This document shows positions 15,527 through 62,114 of a stretch of DNA of 64,000 nt, piece after piece (position 1 is the stretch's first letter; each line of letters begins with the position of its first letter). The notes below the pieces were generated by a model. It made no database searches, was not told the DNA's origin, and worked only from the letters and a program-made list of their open reading frames with translations. The DNA is taken from NCBI GenBank assembly GCA_019670725.1, contig AP024629.1:3162001-3226000 (forward strand), written 5' to 3'. The DNA is from Alphaproteobacteria bacterium SO-S41. GTDB taxonomy: Bacteria; Pseudomonadota; Alphaproteobacteria; Micropepsales; Micropepsaceae. The position numbers and the translations under genes are program-made.

Positions 15527-15649
15527 ATGCCGGCCATCAAGAGTTGGCATCGCTTCGCCGCAGTAGCCGCTCGCGCCGGCATCTACGTCTTCGTTGCCTT
15601 TTGCGTCGTCGGCATTCTTAGCGGCTGGTACTTAGCTTTCAGAGGCTGA
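15527..15649 (+). CDS. Short single-span membrane protein
   Basis: A 40-residue protein, MPAIKSWHRFAAVAARAG followed by one membrane helix (IYVFVAFCVVGILSGWYLAF). It starts four bases after the previous stop and is probably cotranscribed with the repressor and the exported protein. Its size and topology suit a superinfection-exclusion or small regulatory peptide, but nothing proves it. Confidence 0.5.
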   Translation: MPAIKSWHRFAAVAARAGIYVFVAFCVVGILSGWYLAFRG

Positions 15650-16015
15650 ACGGCCGATCTGGTCGCCGTTCGGGTTGCGATACTTCCGCACCAGAACATA
15701 GGCGTTGAGCAGATTGTCGATGAGGGCGGCCGCCAGCGATTTGCGGGCCCATTCCCTCTCCTGCCACTCTTTCGATCGAAGCGCCGGCAGTTCTCGGCGC
15801 GCCGCCATGGCCGCCAGCTTCACCGCGAAAGTCGTCTCGATCTCAGCGCGGGTCACGAACTCGGGTTCGCGGCCGTTGATCCGCCAGCGCAACCGATCGC
15901 CGAACTGCGCAGCGCGCGCGAGCGCGTCTAGTTCTTCAAGCGTGACCGTCACCAGCCCCGCATCGGCCTGACCGAGAAGGCGGTCGATGAGTGGCTGGAT
16001 AGCCTGCTTGATCAT
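15632..16015 (-). CDS. Unknown protein, second gene of LexA-box operon (prophage copy)
   Basis: A 127-residue soluble protein. Its middle (VTLEELDALARAAQ, GDRLRWRING, TRAEIETTFA) aligns with the protein at 58056-58418 (VPVAALRPLLNAARQADKMRWRE, PIDEVRRTLAGAI). Both start in an ATGA overlap with the first gene of the pair. I do not recognise the family. Control by the upstream LexA box suggests induction by DNA damage. Confidence 0.7.
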   Translation of the reverse strand: MIKQAIQPLIDRLLGQADAGLVTVTLEELDALARAAQFGDRLRWRINGREPEFVTRAEIETTFAVKLAAMAARRELPALRSKEWQEREWARKSLAAALIDNLLNAYVLVRKYRNPNGDQIGRSASES

Positions 16016-16413
16016 CGGCCGACGAGCGCCGCCACCTGGCGCTGCATAACCTTCACCAGGTCGGCGAGCTGCTGTCCGGTCGCCTCCTGATGCACCCACC
16101 GGAAATCGTGGAAGACCCGGCCTCGATCGGCGTCATGGACGGCCAGCTCTTGGTTGAATTCGTCCTCAGGATAGAATGACAGCCTCGTGTAGAGGCACTT
16201 GAAGCCAGGCCGGCCAAGGAACGCCACCGAGCCTGAAGTGCGATCTCCATCCACCACCCATTCCGAGGCGGCCTGAAGGTGCAACGTGCCTTGCAGCGGC
16301 GGCGGGTCTTCATTGAGCAGGAAGACAGGGATCAGATCCTCGATCTCCACCTGGTCCGCTTCCTCGATCTGCCGCCTGGTGATCTTGCGCGCCCGAACTG
16401 CAGCCTTACCCAT
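16012..16413 (-). CDS. Unknown protein, first gene of LexA-box operon (prophage copy)
   Basis: A 133-residue protein. The C-terminal part (VFHDFRWVHQEATGQQLADL and VKVMQRQVAALVG) aligns with the end of the protein at 58415-58786 (IFRDFQWEDPMPEDPEVLAR and LMLRMMRVVAAIV). The shared core is F-DF-W, a Leu-rich amphipathic helix and VAA. The start at ATG 16413 is favoured by AGGGAG seven bases upstream; ATGs at 16419 and 16446 are also in frame, the last inside the LexA box. The function is unknown. Confidence 0.7.
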   Translation of the reverse strand: MGKAAVRARKITRRQIEEADQVEIEDLIPVFLLNEDPPPLQGTLHLQAASEWVVDGDRTSGSVAFLGRPGFKCLYTRLSFYPEDEFNQELAVHDADRGRVFHDFRWVHQEATGQQLADLVKVMQRQVAALVGR

Positions 16414-16440
16414 CGCCATTCTCCCTTCTTGTGCGGATGA

Positions 16441-16480
16441 GAACATAATGAGAACATGCTGAGTGCTAGGAGTCGAGTCC
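16441..16480 (-). promoter_or_regulatory. LexA box with promoter (GTTC-N7-GTTC)
   Basis: Read leftward, 16455-16441 is GTTCTCATTATGTTC, an exact match to the alphaproteobacterial LexA consensus GTTC-N7-GTTC. Fifteen bases upstream stands GGACTCGACT (16480-16471). If TCGACT is the -35, a 17-base spacer places TCTCAT as the -10, overlapping the box. The same arrangement with identical spacing occurs at 58804-58843. Confidence 0.8.
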
Positions 16481-16834: not shown

Positions 16835-17059
16835 ATGTCATCTGCTGTCTCGGAGGTCGCTCTATTGCCCAAATTTGCAATTGAGTTGACCGGACATTGC
16901 GGCGCCTGGCTCTCCCTGCGACGCTTCGATCAGGACGCCGCGATCGACGATGCCGTCGAATTCTGGCTGACCGACAACTATGCGGCGGTGGTCATACGGC
17001 GCGGCGGTAAGGTCCTCTGGCAGATGCCCCAAGCCGCAGGCCCCGGGCGATTGATCTAG
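16835..17059 (+). CDS. Small protein of the EFWLT family (prophage copy)
   Basis: A 74-residue protein. The core AWLSLRRFDQDAAIDDAVEF, then WLTDNYAAVVI and GGKVLWQMP, matches the protein at 59494-59751 (LALLQPDEAVALDNAIEFWL, GTKVLWGSP). The predicted fold is a small alpha/beta domain with strand-helix-strand layout. The family is unnamed to me. It is followed by the WRA-type gene in both islands. Confidence 0.65.
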   Translation: MSSAVSEVALLPKFAIELTGHCGAWLSLRRFDQDAAIDDAVEFWLTDNYAAVVIRRGGKVLWQMPQAAGPGRLI

Positions 17060-17170: not shown

Positions 17171-17410
17171 ATGCCTTGGCGAGCAAAGCTATTTCAAAGT
17201 TTCGGACCGAACGGCGGCCAGTTTGCCGCCGACCCTGAAACTGAGGCGATCGCCCGCCAGGTCGTCGCCGAAGCGAAGCGCGAAGGCGCCAGCAAAGACG
17301 ACGTTGCCAAAGAGGTGGTCTATCACGCTCATTCGGTGATGATCATGGCCACTATCGCGCTGGAGCCATACCTCAGCATTGCGCTCCAGCGGCTCGACGA
17401 CCTCTGGTGA
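17171..17410 (+). CDS. Small protein of the M-WRA family (prophage copy)
   Basis: A 79-residue protein starting MPWRAKLF. It aligns along its whole length with the protein at 59838-60098: M-WRA-L, F-DP-TE--AR-V-A-AKR-G, DDVA-E-V-H and a final L--LW. It is helical and acidic in the centre (DDVAKEVVYHAH). The family is not recognised. It is the last gene before the presumed prophage end. Confidence 0.65.
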   Translation: MPWRAKLFQSFGPNGGQFAADPETEAIARQVVAEAKREGASKDDVAKEVVYHAHSVMIMATIALEPYLSIALQRLDDLW

Positions 17411-17878
17411 GACGCCGATAGCATCGTCCCACTTACTTCAGCCGGAAGATGGATCAGTGATTTGGTTAAGTGAGTAAGAGGCGCGGATTTCCGCCTCAAA
17501 ACGCCATCGTCCCACTTCTTTTCAAACTGGGACGGCATTTGCCCAGTTCCTCACCCCCTTAGCTGGCTTCCAAGCGTTGTCCTCGGCGGCTTGCTGACCG
17601 CCCTTATTGAGCGCTGAGGGCCGGTTTTCCGCGTTCTTGGGCGCTCCAGAGGCCTTTCTAAGGACGGCTAAGGGCTGCGCGCCGCGAGGGCCGTTTTGGC
17701 CGGCAGGGTGGCCGCGCGGTGTCTATCTTTACCAAAATTCTAGACACCGGCTGCGCGCTGCGCGTAGCTCGGAAATCGCCAATTTTTAGCGGCTTCCTGC
17801 GGTTTCCATCCCGCTATTGCCCGTCAAATCCCGGAATATCCCGTCTCCAGAATTGGATGATCACTTACACCGATCTCG
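17411..17878. other. Non-coding prophage end region with short repeats
   Basis: No convincing gene. CATCGTCCCACTT occurs twice in direct orientation (17422-17434 and 17505-17517), with an inverted TGGGACG just after the second copy. These could be transposase end-binding sites, since MuA binds several repeated sites at each end. A 9-bp perfect inverted repeat (CGGTGTCTA at 17717-17725, TAGACACCG at 17741-17749) also lies here. I could not pick the terminal CA. Confidence 0.45.
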
Positions 17879-17972
17879 GCGCTTCACGCGATCACACGTC
17901 CCCCTCTGCCATCCCGTTCGCTCCGCGACTGGAATGGCTGTCTCCCCCGCAAGCGCAGGGGGAGCAAGGGAC
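17879..17972 (-). repeat. Intergenic hairpin repeat family A, copy 1
   Basis: This is the reverse complement of the elements at 34478, 40546, 43324 and 44906. It has a C-run/G-run hairpin, then a variable stem (GCCAT/ATGGC at 17908 and 17934), then AGAGGGGGACGTGTGATC. Read in the portal gene's direction it begins directly after that gene's stop. It marks chromosomal DNA rather than prophage. Confidence 0.8.
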
Positions 17973-17979
17973 ACATCGC

Positions 17980-19146
17980 CTAGGCGCTCACCCCATACCC
18001 CGCCGCCGCGCGCTTCTCGTCACGGTCCAGGAAGGTTGCCGACTCCAGCTGCGCCCACAGGTTGGCGCGTTCCTCGGTCAGCGCCGGCACCGCGTCGGCA
18101 TCGACGGCAAGCCGCAGCCCGCTTCCGAATTGCGGCCCCAGCCACCGCGTCAACGCCGCCGCCATCCGCGCGGCCAGCGGCAGCACCGTCTGCCGCCAGA
18201 AGGCGAGATTGGCCGCGCCGTAATTGGCATAGGTCGCATCGCCGGGAATCCCGAGCAGCATGGGCGGCACGCCGAACGCCATCGCGATGTCGCGCGCCGC
18301 CGCGTTGCGCCCCGCGTCGAAATCCATGTCCTGCGGCGTCAGGCTCATCGGCCGCCATTCCAGGCCGCCCTCCAACAGCAGCGGCCGCCCTGCCCCGCGC
18401 GGTCCGCTGCGCTGCTGGTCCAGCTCGTCGCGCAGCCGCTGGTATTGCTCGTCGCTCAGCGCCTCCGCGCCCGGGCTCCCGCGATAAACCAACGCGCCGC
18501 TGGGCCGCGCGGCATTGTCGAGCAGGGCCTTGTTCCAGGCCGCCATCGCATTGTGCAGGTCGATCGCCTGCGCCGCCGCCTCGATGGGCGACAGGCCATA
18601 GTGATCGTCGACGGGATGGAACAGCTTCAGATGCAGCACGGGCAGAAACCCGTCCGCCTCGCGCTTGAGGCTCACCTCGCGCCCGCCGGCGCTGTAGACA
18701 TACGCTTCCGGCCACCCGTCGCGCCCCGGCACCGCGCGCACCCGGTCGGCGCGCAGCGCGAACAGCTCGCGCGGCACGCCGTCCAGCCGTACGGCCTCCA
18801 TATAGGCGTTGCCCGCGATCTGCAGCCCGGCATAGAGCCGCTCCATCACATCGGAGCGCGTCTCCGCCGGATTGGGCGTTGCGATCAGCTCGAGCAGCGG
18901 ATGCTGCGTCAGCTCCGCGTCGCCCTCATACAGCAGGAACGGCACGCTCGCCGCCGCCTCCGCGATCATGCGCACGGCGCGATAGGCGACCGGGTTCTTC
19001 ACGAACCCCTCGCGCGCCAGACTGGCATAATCGCGCGGCGTCCACCGCGCGCGCCCGCCATGCTGGAGCGCAATCACCGGCCCCGCCGCACTCGCCTTGC
19101 CTTCGGGCGCACGCATCCGCGCCCGCCGCCTGAAGCGTTCGAACAT
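17980..19146 (-). CDS. HK97/GTA-type portal protein
   Basis: A 388-residue portal protein, the dodecameric ring through which DNA enters the capsid. Typical segments are NPVAYRAVRMIAEAAASVPF (residues 50-69), QIAGNAYMEAVR, then HLKLFHPVDDHYGLSPIEAA, then DFDAGRNAAARDIAMAFGVP and MLLGIPGDATYANYGAANLA. Its length and sequence match the gene-transfer-agent portal (RcGTA g3 type). No prohead protease or capsid gene follows before the prophage, so the cluster is interrupted or incomplete here. A sigma70-like promoter lies upstream at 19332-19360. Confidence 0.9.
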   Translation of the reverse strand: MFERFRRRARMRAPEGKASAAGPVIALQHGGRARWTPRDYASLAREGFVKNPVAYRAVRMIAEAAASVPFLLYEGDAELTQHPLLELIATPNPAETRSDVMERLYAGLQIAGNAYMEAVRLDGVPRELFALRADRVRAVPGRDGWPEAYVYSAGGREVSLKREADGFLPVLHLKLFHPVDDHYGLSPIEAAAQAIDLHNAMAAWNKALLDNAARPSGALVYRGSPGAEALSDEQYQRLRDELDQQRSGPRGAGRPLLLEGGLEWRPMSLTPQDMDFDAGRNAAARDIAMAFGVPPMLLGIPGDATYANYGAANLAFWRQTVLPLAARMAAALTRWLGPQFGSGLRLAVDADAVPALTEERANLWAQLESATFLDRDEKRAAAGYGVSA

Positions 19147-57125: not shown

Positions 57126-57188
57126 GTGGCCGTCGCCCTGGACCCGTCAATCCGCGGCGAACATACTAAGACGTCCGGGAGAACGGTC

Positions 57189-57836
57189 GTGCTGAGCCGA
57201 ACAGGATACAAATTCGTAGAGCCGGAAGCGGCACACTTTATCGATGCAGGCTCCGTGAAGGTTGGAGCTTTAGCCAAATATCGCGACGAGGAAGCGAACG
57301 CTGATCTTATCGGAGACAAAGACGACGGCACAGAACAAACCCTGCTCGGCGACCGCGTCACTCTGGATGATGACGAGTTTCAGCGGCGAGCTAACGGTCC
57401 GATGCGGCGCCAATTCAACATCCCTGGCGGAAAAGCAAACACGTTCGCCAACATCCGAGTTGTTCAAGAGCATCATCTTCCGACGTACTGCTTCACACGA
57501 AATCTATCACCGGCTGCCGTTCAGTCGTTCGCGAAGATTGGATTCACTGCCTGCTATCGGATTTCTGACGTCTACTATCTTGCTCACATCATAGCTGCCG
57601 CTATCGCGACGGCGGGTGTCGCCATGGATCTCATGGTCGGCCCCGTCGAATATGTGGAGAGCATAGAAACCGCCTGGGACCAGGAACCACCACCAGCGGA
57701 AGTATCGCTATTTAGGAAGCATCGCCGTTTCGCGGTACAAGACGAGGGGCGAATCTATTGGACCAAGCCTGACTTCAAGGAGCCGACCTTCCTCAATCTC
57801 GATGAGGCGCGGCGCATGTTCACGCGCGTATTCTGA
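57189..57836 (+). CDS. Hypothetical protein of accessory island
   Basis: A 215-residue soluble protein. Its front (FIDAGSVKVGALAKYRDEEA, then GDKDDGTEQTLLGDRVTLDD) and end (FRKHRRFAVQDEGRIYWTKP) resemble a family of unnamed proteins with IGSL-YR-E-GD-EG patterns that I have only seen as hypothetical proteins in accessory DNA. Codon use is visibly less GC-rich than in the chromosomal neighbours, which suggests transfer. GTG 57189 is favoured by GGGAGA six bases upstream; GTG 57126 opens the frame. Confidence 0.6.
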   Translation: MLSRTGYKFVEPEAAHFIDAGSVKVGALAKYRDEEANADLIGDKDDGTEQTLLGDRVTLDDDEFQRRANGPMRRQFNIPGGKANTFANIRVVQEHHLPTYCFTRNLSPAAVQSFAKIGFTACYRISDVYYLAHIIAAAIATAGVAMDLMVGPVEYVESIETAWDQEPPPAEVSLFRKHRRFAVQDEGRIYWTKPDFKEPTFLNLDEARRMFTRVF

Positions 57837-57955
57837 TCTTGCCGTTGCAACGCAAAAGTACCCACCGTCCGTCGAACCGGAGGGGTCGAACAACAGATCG
57901 CTAAAGCCCGAACGGTGCAGAAAGCAACCCCGGCTGCATCGGCCTGACGCCAGAG

Positions 57956-58078
57956 ATGACGCGCGCCATCTACACGATCACCCATGACGCCAGGGGCTAC
58001 CTCGTCGTGTTCGAGGACCGGCCCTACGGTCCGCATGCCGAGCTTCTCGACGCGTTCAAGACCGCTGCGCATTCCGCA
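57956..58078 (+). pseudogene. Truncated duplicate of the 58961 gene
   Basis: The first 40 codons (TRAIYTITHDARGYLVVFED, then RPYGPHAELLDAFKTAAHSA) are almost identical, also at the DNA level, to the gene at 58961. The similarity then stops abruptly at the 3' end of the leftward gene that ends at 58056, and an unrelated tail follows. It looks like a direct-repeat remnant of a duplication or an insertion. Confidence 0.7.
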
Positions 58079-58418
58079 GCCGTCGCGCGAAGACGAAATC
58101 TGCCGCGAGCGCGGCCGTCAGCCGGTCGGCAACGGCCTTGCTGCCGATCTGTTTGAACATGTCGTCGCGATAGGGCTTCAAGGGGCACGGCACATTGCCC
58201 GTGCCGATGTCGACGATCGCACCCGCCAGCGTGCGCCGCACCTCGTCGATCGGCACGACCTGGGGAATGCCCCGCTCTTCTCGCCAGCGCATCTTGTCGG
58301 CCTGCCGGGCGGCATTGAGCAGCGGCCGCAGCGCCGCCACAGGCACGGTGATCTCCGTCTCGTCGGCGAGGCCAAGAAGACCTAGATCCTTGATGATTTC
58401 CTCGACGGTTTCGCTCAT
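58056..58418 (-). CDS. Unknown protein, second gene of LexA-box operon (island copy)
   Basis: A 120-residue protein, SETVEEIIKDLGLLGLADET, then ITVPVAALRPLLNAARQADK, MRWREERGIPQVVPIDEVRR, and an ending with VADRLTAALAADFVFARRLR. It is homologous to the prophage protein at 15632-16015 (shared L-LL-AA--D--RWR and the following I/V-E---T-A). The ATG overlaps the stop of the first gene (ATGA), as in the prophage copy. The function is unknown. Confidence 0.7.
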   Translation of the reverse strand: MSETVEEIIKDLGLLGLADETEITVPVAALRPLLNAARQADKMRWREERGIPQVVPIDEVRRTLAGAIVDIGTGNVPCPLKPYRDDMFKQIGSKAVADRLTAALAADFVFARRLRNAQRS

Positions 58419-58786
58419 CGCTGGCCAGCTCTCGTCTTCACGATCGCGGCGACGACGCGCATCATGCGGAGCATCAGCCGCGCCAACACTTCGGGATCCT
58501 CCGGCATGGGGTCTTCCCATTGGAAGTCACGAAAGATCAGCCCCGTCTCGCTGTCGTGGAGTGTCAGAGCGCCCTCGTCCTGGCTGAAGTCCTCGGCGCC
58601 CGCGTCCTCGGCCGGCATGAATGCCGCGGCGAAGGCAGGCATTCCTTCGAACAGAACCGCACCGCCCTTAAAGCCGCGCCGTACCGTCCAGCGATACTCG
58701 CTGACGATGACCTGCTGCTGGACGCTGCCTTCGGGCGGTACGGCCGCGCCGAGGCCGTCCTGCTCCTCACTAACCGCGCTTCCCAT
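58415..58786 (-). CDS. Unknown protein, first gene of LexA-box operon (island copy)
   Basis: A 123-residue protein with a beta-rich middle (QQQVIVSEYRWTVRRGFKGG) and a C-terminal helix region (LIFRDFQWEDPMPEDPEVLA, RLMLRMMRVVAAIVKTRAGQ) that corresponds to the end of the prophage protein at 16012-16413. ATG 58786 lies about 17 bases after the LexA box, with GAGGA just before it. An in-frame ATG at 58849 would place the box inside the gene and is less likely. It is not a known family to me. Confidence 0.7.
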   Translation of the reverse strand: MGSAVSEEQDGLGAAVPPEGSVQQQVIVSEYRWTVRRGFKGGAVLFEGMPAFAAAFMPAEDAGAEDFSQDEGALTLHDSETGLIFRDFQWEDPMPEDPEVLARLMLRMMRVVAAIVKTRAGQR

Positions 58787-58803
58787 GTCCTCACTCTCGA
58801 CTA

Positions 58804-58843
58804 GAACAAAATAAGAACATTCATTGAGAGCGAAGTCGAGTCC
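58804..58843 (-). promoter_or_regulatory. LexA box with promoter (GTTC-N7-GTTC), second copy
   Basis: Read leftward, 58818-58804 is GTTCTTATTTTGTTC. GGACTCGACT (58843-58834) stands 15 bases upstream, exactly as at 16441-16480. With TCGACT as the -35, the -10 after 17 bases is TCTTAT, inside the box. Confidence 0.8.
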
Positions 58844-58960
58844 CTTCATCTCTACGCGAGGTTGAGCTGGAAGCCCCTGATGATGAAACCGGCGGGATCG
58901 GCCCAACGCAACCGATCGGGCTCTCCCGCGTTCAGCCGAAAAAGCACCACCGAGCCCGAG

Positions 58961-59224
58961 ATGACGCGCGCCATTTACACGATCACCCACGACGCCCGGG
59001 GCTACCTCGTCGTGTTCGAGGACCGGCCCTACGGTCCGTATGCCGAGCTGCTCGATGCGTTCAAGACCGCCGCGCATTCCGCGTTCGATGCGGCAAAACA
59101 GAATGCCGACGGCGCCGAGGTCTTCGTTCAGGAGGACGGCGGCCGGCGCACCATCTGGGCCTCCGAGGTCGATTCCTATCCGATGGATTTCCGCGCCCGG
59201 CTCGGGCTGCCGCCGCTCTTCTGA
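58961..59224 (+). CDS. Small hypothetical protein (intact copy)
   Basis: An 87-residue protein: TRAIYTITHDARGYLVVFED, then DAFKTAAHSAFDAAKQNADG and GGRRTIWASEVDSYPMDFRA. It reads as a small alpha/beta domain of DUF2188-like type. A truncated copy lies 1 kb upstream at 57956. Its stop overlaps the next ATG (TGATG). Confidence 0.65.
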   Translation: MTRAIYTITHDARGYLVVFEDRPYGPYAELLDAFKTAAHSAFDAAKQNADGAEVFVQEDGGRRTIWASEVDSYPMDFRARLGLPPLF

Positions 59225-59421
59225 TGACGGCCGATCGCCCCACTTTGATCGAACGCGCCTACAGCCTCGCGCGCAGCGGCAAGTGCGCGAACGTGACGGC
59301 CTTGAAGGCCGCCCTTCACAGGGAGGGCTATACCCACGCCGAACTGGCGCAGTGGGGGTCCGCGCTGGGGCGCGAGCTGAACAAGATCTGCAAGGCCGCC
59401 CGCGACGCGACAAGCGGTTGA
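59224..59421 (+). CDS. Small hypothetical helical protein
   Basis: A 65-residue protein, IERAYSLARSGKCANVTALK, AALHREGYTHAELAQWGSAL. It looks like a short DNA-binding-type helical bundle, and similar short proteins (single Cys in SGKC, RLxxEGY pattern) occur widely in alphaproteobacteria. It is translationally coupled to the gene before it. Confidence 0.65.
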   Translation: MTADRPTLIERAYSLARSGKCANVTALKAALHREGYTHAELAQWGSALGRELNKICKAARDATSG

Positions 59422-59493
59422 CGGCGCGTGATGGCCAGAGGCGCGGCGCGACGCCGCGCGCGATAACAGTGATCCCGAAAAGGTAGAAGTGGT

Positions 59494-59751
59494 GTGCCCG
59501 ATAAGCTAGTGACGACGCGGATCGGTACGTGGGACTGCGTGACGAGATTTCGTATCCAGCTGCTCGGGCTCGGCGGCGCCACGCTGGCGCTGCTTCAGCC
59601 TGACGAAGCGGTCGCGCTCGACAATGCGATCGAGTTCTGGCTGACCGGCCTCTACGCGACGGTGACGCTGACCTATGGGACGAAGGTGTTGTGGGGCAGC
59701 CCGAAACGAATGCCGGCCGCCTTCAATTTCATGGACAGGCTCGGCGCGTAA
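59494..59751 (+). CDS. Small protein of the EFWLT family (island copy)
   Basis: An 85-residue protein. Its core, TRFRIQLLGLGGATLALLQP and DNAIEFWLTGLYATVTLTYG, GTKVLWGSP, matches the prophage protein at 16835-17059. The start GTG 59494 is tentative. It is followed by the WRA-type gene, as in the prophage. Confidence 0.65.
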   Translation: MPDKLVTTRIGTWDCVTRFRIQLLGLGGATLALLQPDEAVALDNAIEFWLTGLYATVTLTYGTKVLWGSPKRMPAAFNFMDRLGA

Positions 59752-59837
59752 AAATGATGCCTGCCTCCCCTTTTGGGGGGATTGCCCGCCTGAACAGGCT
59801 GCCCGACTGTTCGCTGCGTACAAAGCGAGAGCAGCTC

Positions 59838-60098
59838 ATGTTGTGGCGCGCCGAGTTACCGACAGGCTTCGACCCGCGGGATTGTGTCTTTGCCGGCAAC
59901 CCTCAAACCGAGGGCGCGGCGCGCAAGGTGCTTGCCGTCGCGAAGCGCACCGGCGATGGCCAGGACGATGTCGCCCGCGAGATCGTTTGGCACATCAGGA
60001 CGAGCCCGATCGCCAAGGGCGATGCGGCCTTCGTCGATGCCCAACTGAACCGGCTGGCCGAACTCTGGCGCGCCTTGGACACGCCACGGGCGCCCTAG
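59838..60098 (+). CDS. Small protein of the M-WRA family (island copy)
   Basis: An 86-residue protein, MLWRAELPTGFDPRDCVFAG, then NPQTEGAARKVLAVAKRTGD and GQDDVAREIVWHI. It aligns end to end with the prophage protein at 17171-17410. ATG 59838 gives the equivalent start. Unlike the prophage copy it has no inverted repeat upstream. Confidence 0.65.
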   Translation: MLWRAELPTGFDPRDCVFAGNPQTEGAARKVLAVAKRTGDGQDDVAREIVWHIRTSPIAKGDAAFVDAQLNRLAELWRALDTPRAP

Positions 60099-60132
60099 CC
60101 CTCCTCCGCCATCGCCGAAGCTTCGCTTGGAT

Positions 60133-61212: not shown

Positions 61213-61322
61213 ATCACCCTCACTGTAAACTTTGAACACATCATCTATCACACTTCGTGGGCTTAACTGTCAACAATACGATAACCGGGTCGCAGCCGGC
61301 CTCCTGCGGCGTCCGGCCCGCC

Positions 61323-62114
61323 CTAGCCCTCCTCCGCCATCGCCCACGCTTCGATCCGTCCGGCCCGCCGCGTGCCCGAGACCAGCCCGTAATGCGCCGC
61401 CAGGCGGTCGAGCGCGAGGCGCAGGATCGTCTTGGCGGAGCGTTGCGGCCAGCCGAAGCCGCGTTCGGCCTCGTTCAGCCCGCGCGCCGTGCACACCACG
61501 TCGAACAGCAGATCGCTGAGGCCCGGCCCCGCCGCGTCCAGCGCCGCAAGGCAGCGCCGTTTGGCGTCGAGCGCGCTCGCCGTGCGGTGCTCGCCGCCCG
61601 CCCCTGCACGCGGCGTCGAATCCAGCGGCACGGACGGATCGCGCGTTACGCGCGGCCGCAATTGGGCGCGCTCGAAATCGGTCTGCAGCCGGTCCGCCGC
61701 CTCGCAGTGCAGGGGGCTGAGGAACGGCGTGCCGTCCGTCTCGATATGGCGCTTCAGGAAATCGAGCGGCGCCGTCGCGTGATCGATGCGCAGACCGCCG
61801 GGCAGCGCCTCGACCTCGCCATGCTGGTTGCGGAACGCCGTCGCGCTCGGCCCCGCCGCGCGCCGCAGCCACGCCTCGCCCTCGGCCGCGATGGCATAGC
61901 GCCGGTCGTCCGCCAGCGCGATCCAGCCCCGCGCCGCGAAGGCCGCGACGGTATCGGCCGCCGCCGTCAGGCGCACCCGGCCGCCGGGGCGCAGGCTCAG
62001 CGCGTAATCGCCCGACGCGCGCCGCTCCAGCCGCGCCTGGCCCATATGCCTCAGGATCCGCGCCGCCTCGCGCTGGATTGCCCGTTTCGCTCCGCCGCTG
62101 TCCGAAATGCCCAT
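61323..62114 (-). CDS. DUF6456 domain protein
   Basis: A 263-residue protein. The C-terminal part (residues about 100-250) is the DUF6456 domain of alphaproteobacteria: SPLHCEAADRLQTDFERAQL, RPRVTRDP, LSDLLFDVVCTARGLNEAER, then GWPQRSAKTILRLALDRLAA. The N-terminal half resembles a winged-helix region (SLRPGGRVRLTAAADTVAAF). It is probably a DNA-associated factor of unknown role. ATG 62114 is preceded by GAGG at five bases. Confidence 0.85.
   Translation of the reverse strand: MGISDSGGAKRAIQREAARILRHMGQARLERRASGDYALSLRPGGRVRLTAAADTVAAFAARGWIALADDRRYAIAAEGEAWLRRAAGPSATAFRNQHGEVEALPGGLRIDHATAPLDFLKRHIETDGTPFLSPLHCEAADRLQTDFERAQLRPRVTRDPSVPLDSTPRAGAGGEHRTASALDAKRRCLAALDAAGPGLSDLLFDVVCTARGLNEAERGFGWPQRSAKTILRLALDRLAAHYGLVSGTRRAGRIEAWAMAEEG

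Follow-up and report, generated by a model that had tools for sequence, protein, structure and literature searches.

The window analysed here, a stretch of 64,000 nucleotides, contains two loci for which the preliminary description had claimed at least four shared genes, arranged in the same divergent order and 42 kb apart. This raises the question of what the two loci are, how the second of them came to lie where it does and what the shared genes may do. The claim itself is borne out, since four gene pairs between 15.6 and 17.4 kb (copy A) and between 58.1 and 60.1 kb (copy B) are homologous, all of them far above background. By BLASTP, run against a small database with composition adjustment off, the operon gene 2 pair (A1/B1) shares 26% identity over 118 aa (E value, 2e-8), the operon gene 1 pair (A2/B2) 32% over 100 aa (1e-9), the pair that we call EFWLT 48% over 54 aa (2e-15) and the pair that we call WRA 43% over 79 aa (6e-18). 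The pairwise protein alignments gave Smith-Waterman z values of 11.4 (A1/B1), 16.2 (A2/B2), 24.0 (EFWLT) and 29.3 (WRA), with 0 of 1,000 shuffles reaching the score of any pair, and none of the pairs, the two small genes included, falls at background level.

The layout is identical in the two copies (Table 1): a leftward operon preceded by a LexA-type box, a rightward EFWLT gene and a rightward WRA gene. In both of them, the start codon of operon gene 2 lies within an ATGA overlap with gene 1. At the DNA level, the likeness between the prophage that carries copy A and the island that carries copy B comes down essentially to the EFWLT and WRA genes and the promoters, with little else. The pairing of the WRA genes at 17171 and 59838 stands as homology, while the copy B start at 59838 falls inside an open reading frame (ORF) listed as 59691 to 60098. 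The span first given for copy B, for its part, also takes in the truncated B0 copy at 57956, as well as B0 and the 65-aa ORF, both of which are absent from copy A; the middle gene of copy A, A0, resembles B0 or the 65-aa ORF only at shuffle level. Judged from a sequence tree, the two cassettes share one origin and have diverged since, because the copy A and copy B WRA proteins group as sister branches (support, 0.989).

Table 1. Features of the two cassette copies and of their surroundings, in window coordinates
Feature	Position	Strand	Evidence or remark
Copy A operon gene 2 (A1, 127 aa)	15632-16015	-	BLASTP and shuffles
Copy A operon gene 1 (A2, 135 aa)	16012-16419	-	BLASTP and shuffles
LexA-type box GTTCTCATTATGTTC, copy A operon	16441-16455	-	Motif search
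GGACTCGACT promoter element, copy A	16471-16480	-	Promoter alignment
Copy A EFWLT gene (74 aa)	16835-17059	+	BLASTP and shuffles
Copy A WRA gene (79 aa)	17171-17410	+	BLASTP and shuffles, family alignment
Mu-like prophage end on the repressor side; the prophage stops at 17869, followed by CCGAT	17476-17869	-	End mapping, comparison with L021
Truncated second copy of the 5' part of B0	57949-58099	+	151-bp direct repeat with 58954-59104, 88%
Copy B operon gene 2 (B1, 120 aa)	58056-58418	-	26% identity with 15632-16015 (z 11.4)
Copy B operon gene 1 (B2, 123 aa)	58415-58786	-	32% over 100 aa to 16012-16419, z 16.2
LexA-type box GTTCTTATTTTGTTC, copy B operon	58804-58818	-	Box start 32 bp from start codon
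GGACTCGACT promoter element, copy B, in register with copy A	58834-58843	-	Promoter alignment
B0 (87 aa), copy B only; relatives on Azospirillum plasmids	58961-59224	+	
65-aa ORF overlapping the end of B0	59224-59421	+	
Copy B EFWLT gene (85 aa)	59494-59751	+	48% identity with 16835-17059 (z 24)
Copy B WRA gene (86 aa); stop codon inside the 26-bp repeat	59838-60098	+	43% identity with 17171-17410 (z 29)
26-bp exact repeat matching the host gene at 61323 in its 3' end	60091-60116	+	Second copy 61319-61344

Both operon promoters align in register as GGACTCGACT-N14-TGTTCTN5TGTTC, and both contain a GTTC-N7-GTTC box, which is the described alphaproteobacterial LexA motif (PMC3323433). The GAACN7GAAC form occurs twice in the window, in front of the two operons, a count which is not above chance (shuffle mean, 1.27). 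Different from the bare box count, the conservation of the promoters exceeds chance, since 16 of the 25 bases lying upstream of the box agree between the copies, a value that 18 of 200,000 random windows attained. Genome-wide, the more stringent form GTTCTN5TGTTC is found 12 times, compared to a single occurrence of the reversed control, and several of these sites closely precede repair-like genes, for example, those of an endonuclease III-like protein and of a helicase, as named by eye. The element GGACTCGACT is absent from the other boxes of the genome, and its only other near match, at genome position 564260, was discarded as a third promoter of this kind, as it sits in a coding region. LexA control of both operons, as part of the SOS regulon, is thereby predicted from the sequence. 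The cassette resembles the LexA-regulated accessory genes of mobile elements in having a box of the GTTC-N7-GTTC kind 32 to 36 bp ahead of the first operon gene; it differs from them in that its proteins show no similarity to any described SOS gene.

Copy A lies within a Mu-like prophage, the ends of which map to genome positions 3138350 and 3179869 (window position 17869). The prophage is flanked by a 5-bp target duplication, CCGAT, and its termini show inverted similarity, with 16 of the 24 terminal bases matching. The presence of MuA-type DDE_2, MuB C-terminal, Portal_Mu and Phage_Mu_F domains identifies the host element as Mu-like, and an S24-type repressor is encoded as well. The nearest phage relative found, the IMG/VR locus L021 (MuB, 53% identical), starts with the same terminal DNA (window 17869-17476 versus L021 2-396) and encodes a repressor 47% identical to that of the prophage, with different genes between the terminus and the repressor. 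Since L021 keeps both of these parts and replaces what stands between them, and since no cassette gene was found in any of 80 related Mu-like phage loci, copy A amounts to replaceable cargo at the repressor-adjacent end of the phage. The earlier notion of a mobile cargo cassette is thus supported for copy A, given the defined prophage ends, the 5-bp duplication and the replacement in L021; a cassette that is a fixed component of Mu-like phages was rejected on the basis of the same 80 loci. In common with phage morons and with the cargo of Mu-like prophages, the cassette consists of extra genes with their own promoter in a non-essential spot between conserved phage parts. Unlike the described morons, it features a LexA-type box, uncharacterised families and a second, non-phage copy in the same genome. 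The carriers are of known kinds, the protein families are uncharacterised and the regulatory design is clear.

Some other features of the prophage could be noticed. It splits a gene-transfer-agent cluster by about 41.5 kb (junctions at window 17869-17980 and genome 3138028-3138350), the flanking parts of which are the portal gene (window 17980-19146) and the prohead protease and capsid genes (L020 9498-12028). Its Mu F-like head protein (L004 16660-18024) presents a C-terminal PBECR2 nuclease-like domain, and the opposite prophage end (L020 12431-14280), a second cargo spot, contains a trypsin-like protein gene and a DNA cytosine methyltransferase-like gene, the latter recognised by eye.

The co-occurrence of the four genes that had been predicted for other Mu-like prophages and alphaproteobacteria was surveyed and not found: among 96 genomes of the same order, about 385 genomes of the class and the 80 Mu-like loci, the four-gene set was seen in this genome only, with a sensitivity that is limited for short, fast-evolving proteins. 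In the 96 same-order genomes, WRA genes and clear EFWLT genes were confined to this genome. The class-wide searches covered three of the four families, WRA, EFWLT and operon gene 1; the search for operon gene 2 covered this genome, plasmids, phages and IMG/VR. In the class samples, the EFWLT and operon gene 1 profiles gave nothing convincing outside this genome, and the WRA profile gave one plausible distant relative (L013); its other weak matches were rejected, as they lie in long unrelated frames or are not gene-like. No relatives of the operon and EFWLT genes were obtained by tblastn against plasmids and phages, and none of the cassette families by scans of IMG/VR. None of the four families, searched through representatives in PADLOC, gave a hit in Pfam, NCBIfam, PHROGs or PADLOC or a credible match among solved structures, and two structure predictions (mean pLDDT, about 44 to 46) were too uncertain for identification; B1 may be helical, according to a low-confidence prediction for its homologue. 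A third EFWLT member, at genome positions 1792844 to 1793041, is solitary and lies beside a glycosyltransferase gene. It was considered as part of a third cassette copy and rejected, as it stands alone.

Among the four families, WRA alone has detected relatives in other organisms, and its wider mobility is evident from where they occur: on IncX4 and other enterobacterial plasmids, on a Pantoea plasmid and in a Pantoea island, in two Roseibium aggregatum genomes and on a Citrobacter P1-like phage-plasmid, where the gene is located between the maturation-control and Ref genes. In a seven-sequence alignment, positions M1, W3, F11, F18, A19, A28, G39 and E48 are conserved, in keeping with membership in one family. 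In particular, the hypothetical proteins WP_000118581 and WP_000118582 of IncX4 and other enterobacterial plasmids are WRA members, about 30% identical over their full length to the copy B protein, with which they share the M-W, FA-P, AK-G and E-VWH positions; their genes neighbour an Abi_2 gene, a DpnII-MboI-like nuclease gene or other plasmid genes, and the EFWLT and operon genes are missing there. WRA relatives often lie near anti-virus defence genes (Abi_2, restriction, Hachiman), the neighbours comprising Abi_2, a DpnII-MboI-like nuclease, an Mrr/methylase/HNH cluster, HigBA-like genes and HamB of Hachiman. The other three cassette genes stand beside no WRA relative examined, and EFWLT was also not found elsewhere in the records that carry WRA relatives.

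We lean towards reading the two loci as diverged copies of one mobile-element accessory cassette, composed of a coupled operon with an SOS box, EFWLT and WRA, with a likely role in survival or exclusion. Copy A would represent moron-type cargo, expressed in the lysogen, between the left end and the repressor of the Mu-like prophage, and copy B would have been built into a mosaic chromosomal island through recombination between short direct repeats. LexA would keep the operon off until DNA damage, or damage induced by infection, released it; the two operon proteins would then act together, with the products of the small rightward genes as accessory factors. Most likely, they would help the cell or the element to survive damage or to exclude competing elements. 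From the anatomy of the cassette we infer an SOS-switched protein pair, carried as accessory cargo that would benefit the lysogen or the element, and the extension to a defence or exclusion role, suggested by the WRA neighbourhoods, is plausible. The defence-like surroundings of WRA may not carry over to the cassette, because the other three genes adjoin none of the WRA relatives.

The operon could also be a toxin-antitoxin or abortive-infection pair under an SOS-inducible promoter, in a cassette that protects its carrier element, as would fit the small size of the two proteins, the ATGA overlap that both copies retain, the LexA-type box and the location of WRA relatives near Abi_2, HigBA-like and restriction genes. 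However, the proteins resemble no toxin, antitoxin or defence protein described in PADLOC, Pfam, NCBIfam and PHROGs, and no members of the operon families turned up beyond this genome, so that there are no neighbours elsewhere to compare; we consider this explanation possible, though unlikely. A broader proposal is that the four uncharacterised families make up an undescribed module for defence or superinfection exclusion, triggered by the SOS response and passing between Mu-like phages and alphaproteobacterial islands, with WRA as its widespread part, also found beside other plasmid defence systems; we advance it as a conjecture with a rather low chance of being right. If an SOS-linked defence or exclusion role were true, WRA on IncX4 and other enterobacterial plasmids would offer a readily testable representative. 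The accessory cassette that we favour defines several uncharacterised small-protein families together with their regulatory logic, which consists of a LexA-type box in front of a translationally coupled pair. The same cassette is seen in a phage, as replaceable cargo, and in an island.

A less structured origin, with selfish or neutral passenger DNA whose small genes piled up in recombination-prone spots and were kept by chance with no joint function, would account for the mosaic surroundings, the truncated B0 copy, the strong sequence divergence and the presence of B0 and the 65-aa ORF in one copy only. We regard it as improbable, since open frames, gene order, the ATGA overlap and the promoter architecture have been retained despite protein identities of 26 to 48%, which points to selection.

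As for the origin of copy B, the 53- to 61-kb stretch is absent from same-genus relatives, which do have the flanking genes. The relatives of B0 on Azospirillum plasmids are 29 to 33% identical to it; the similarity of the 65-aa ORF to the small gene that follows the B0 relative there is not significant, and no relative of this ORF was confirmed. The 151-bp direct repeat derived from the 5' part of B0 brackets the LexA-type-box operon of copy B, and the 26-bp repeat pair (wider match, 33 of 35 positions) brackets a GHKL/DUF4325 gene, its inner copy overlapping the WRA stop codon. Phage-end sequences were found in the window only at 17.8 kb and none near copy B; the island and the prophage have nothing clear in common, in DNA or protein, beyond the four gene pairs, and no Mu genes occur at copy B. 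It is very doubtful that copy B is what remains of one end of another Mu-like prophage of this kind, since lost, which had its own cassette at the same place. In favour of this idea, the copies are just 42 kb apart, neither the rest of the genome nor its relatives were found to have the set, and copy A is carried by a phage. Against it, Mu ends and Mu genes are both missing at copy B, and the order around it (B0, the 65-aa ORF, the 26-bp repeat and the GHKL gene) lacks phage character, so the remnant of a second prophage end suggested in the preliminary description is not supported. Rather than a decayed phage, the island of copy B looks like a mosaic that arose by stepwise recombination or by site-specific gain of small pieces.

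Adjoining copy B, a 236-aa gene (window 57126-57836) has no Pfam, NCBIfam or PADLOC match. The G+C content is 55.7% in this gene and 54.7% in the GHKL/DUF4325 gene, compared to 66 to 68% in the surroundings. The 26-bp repeats resemble a pair of attachment sites on either side of a one-gene integrated element that lacks an integrase.
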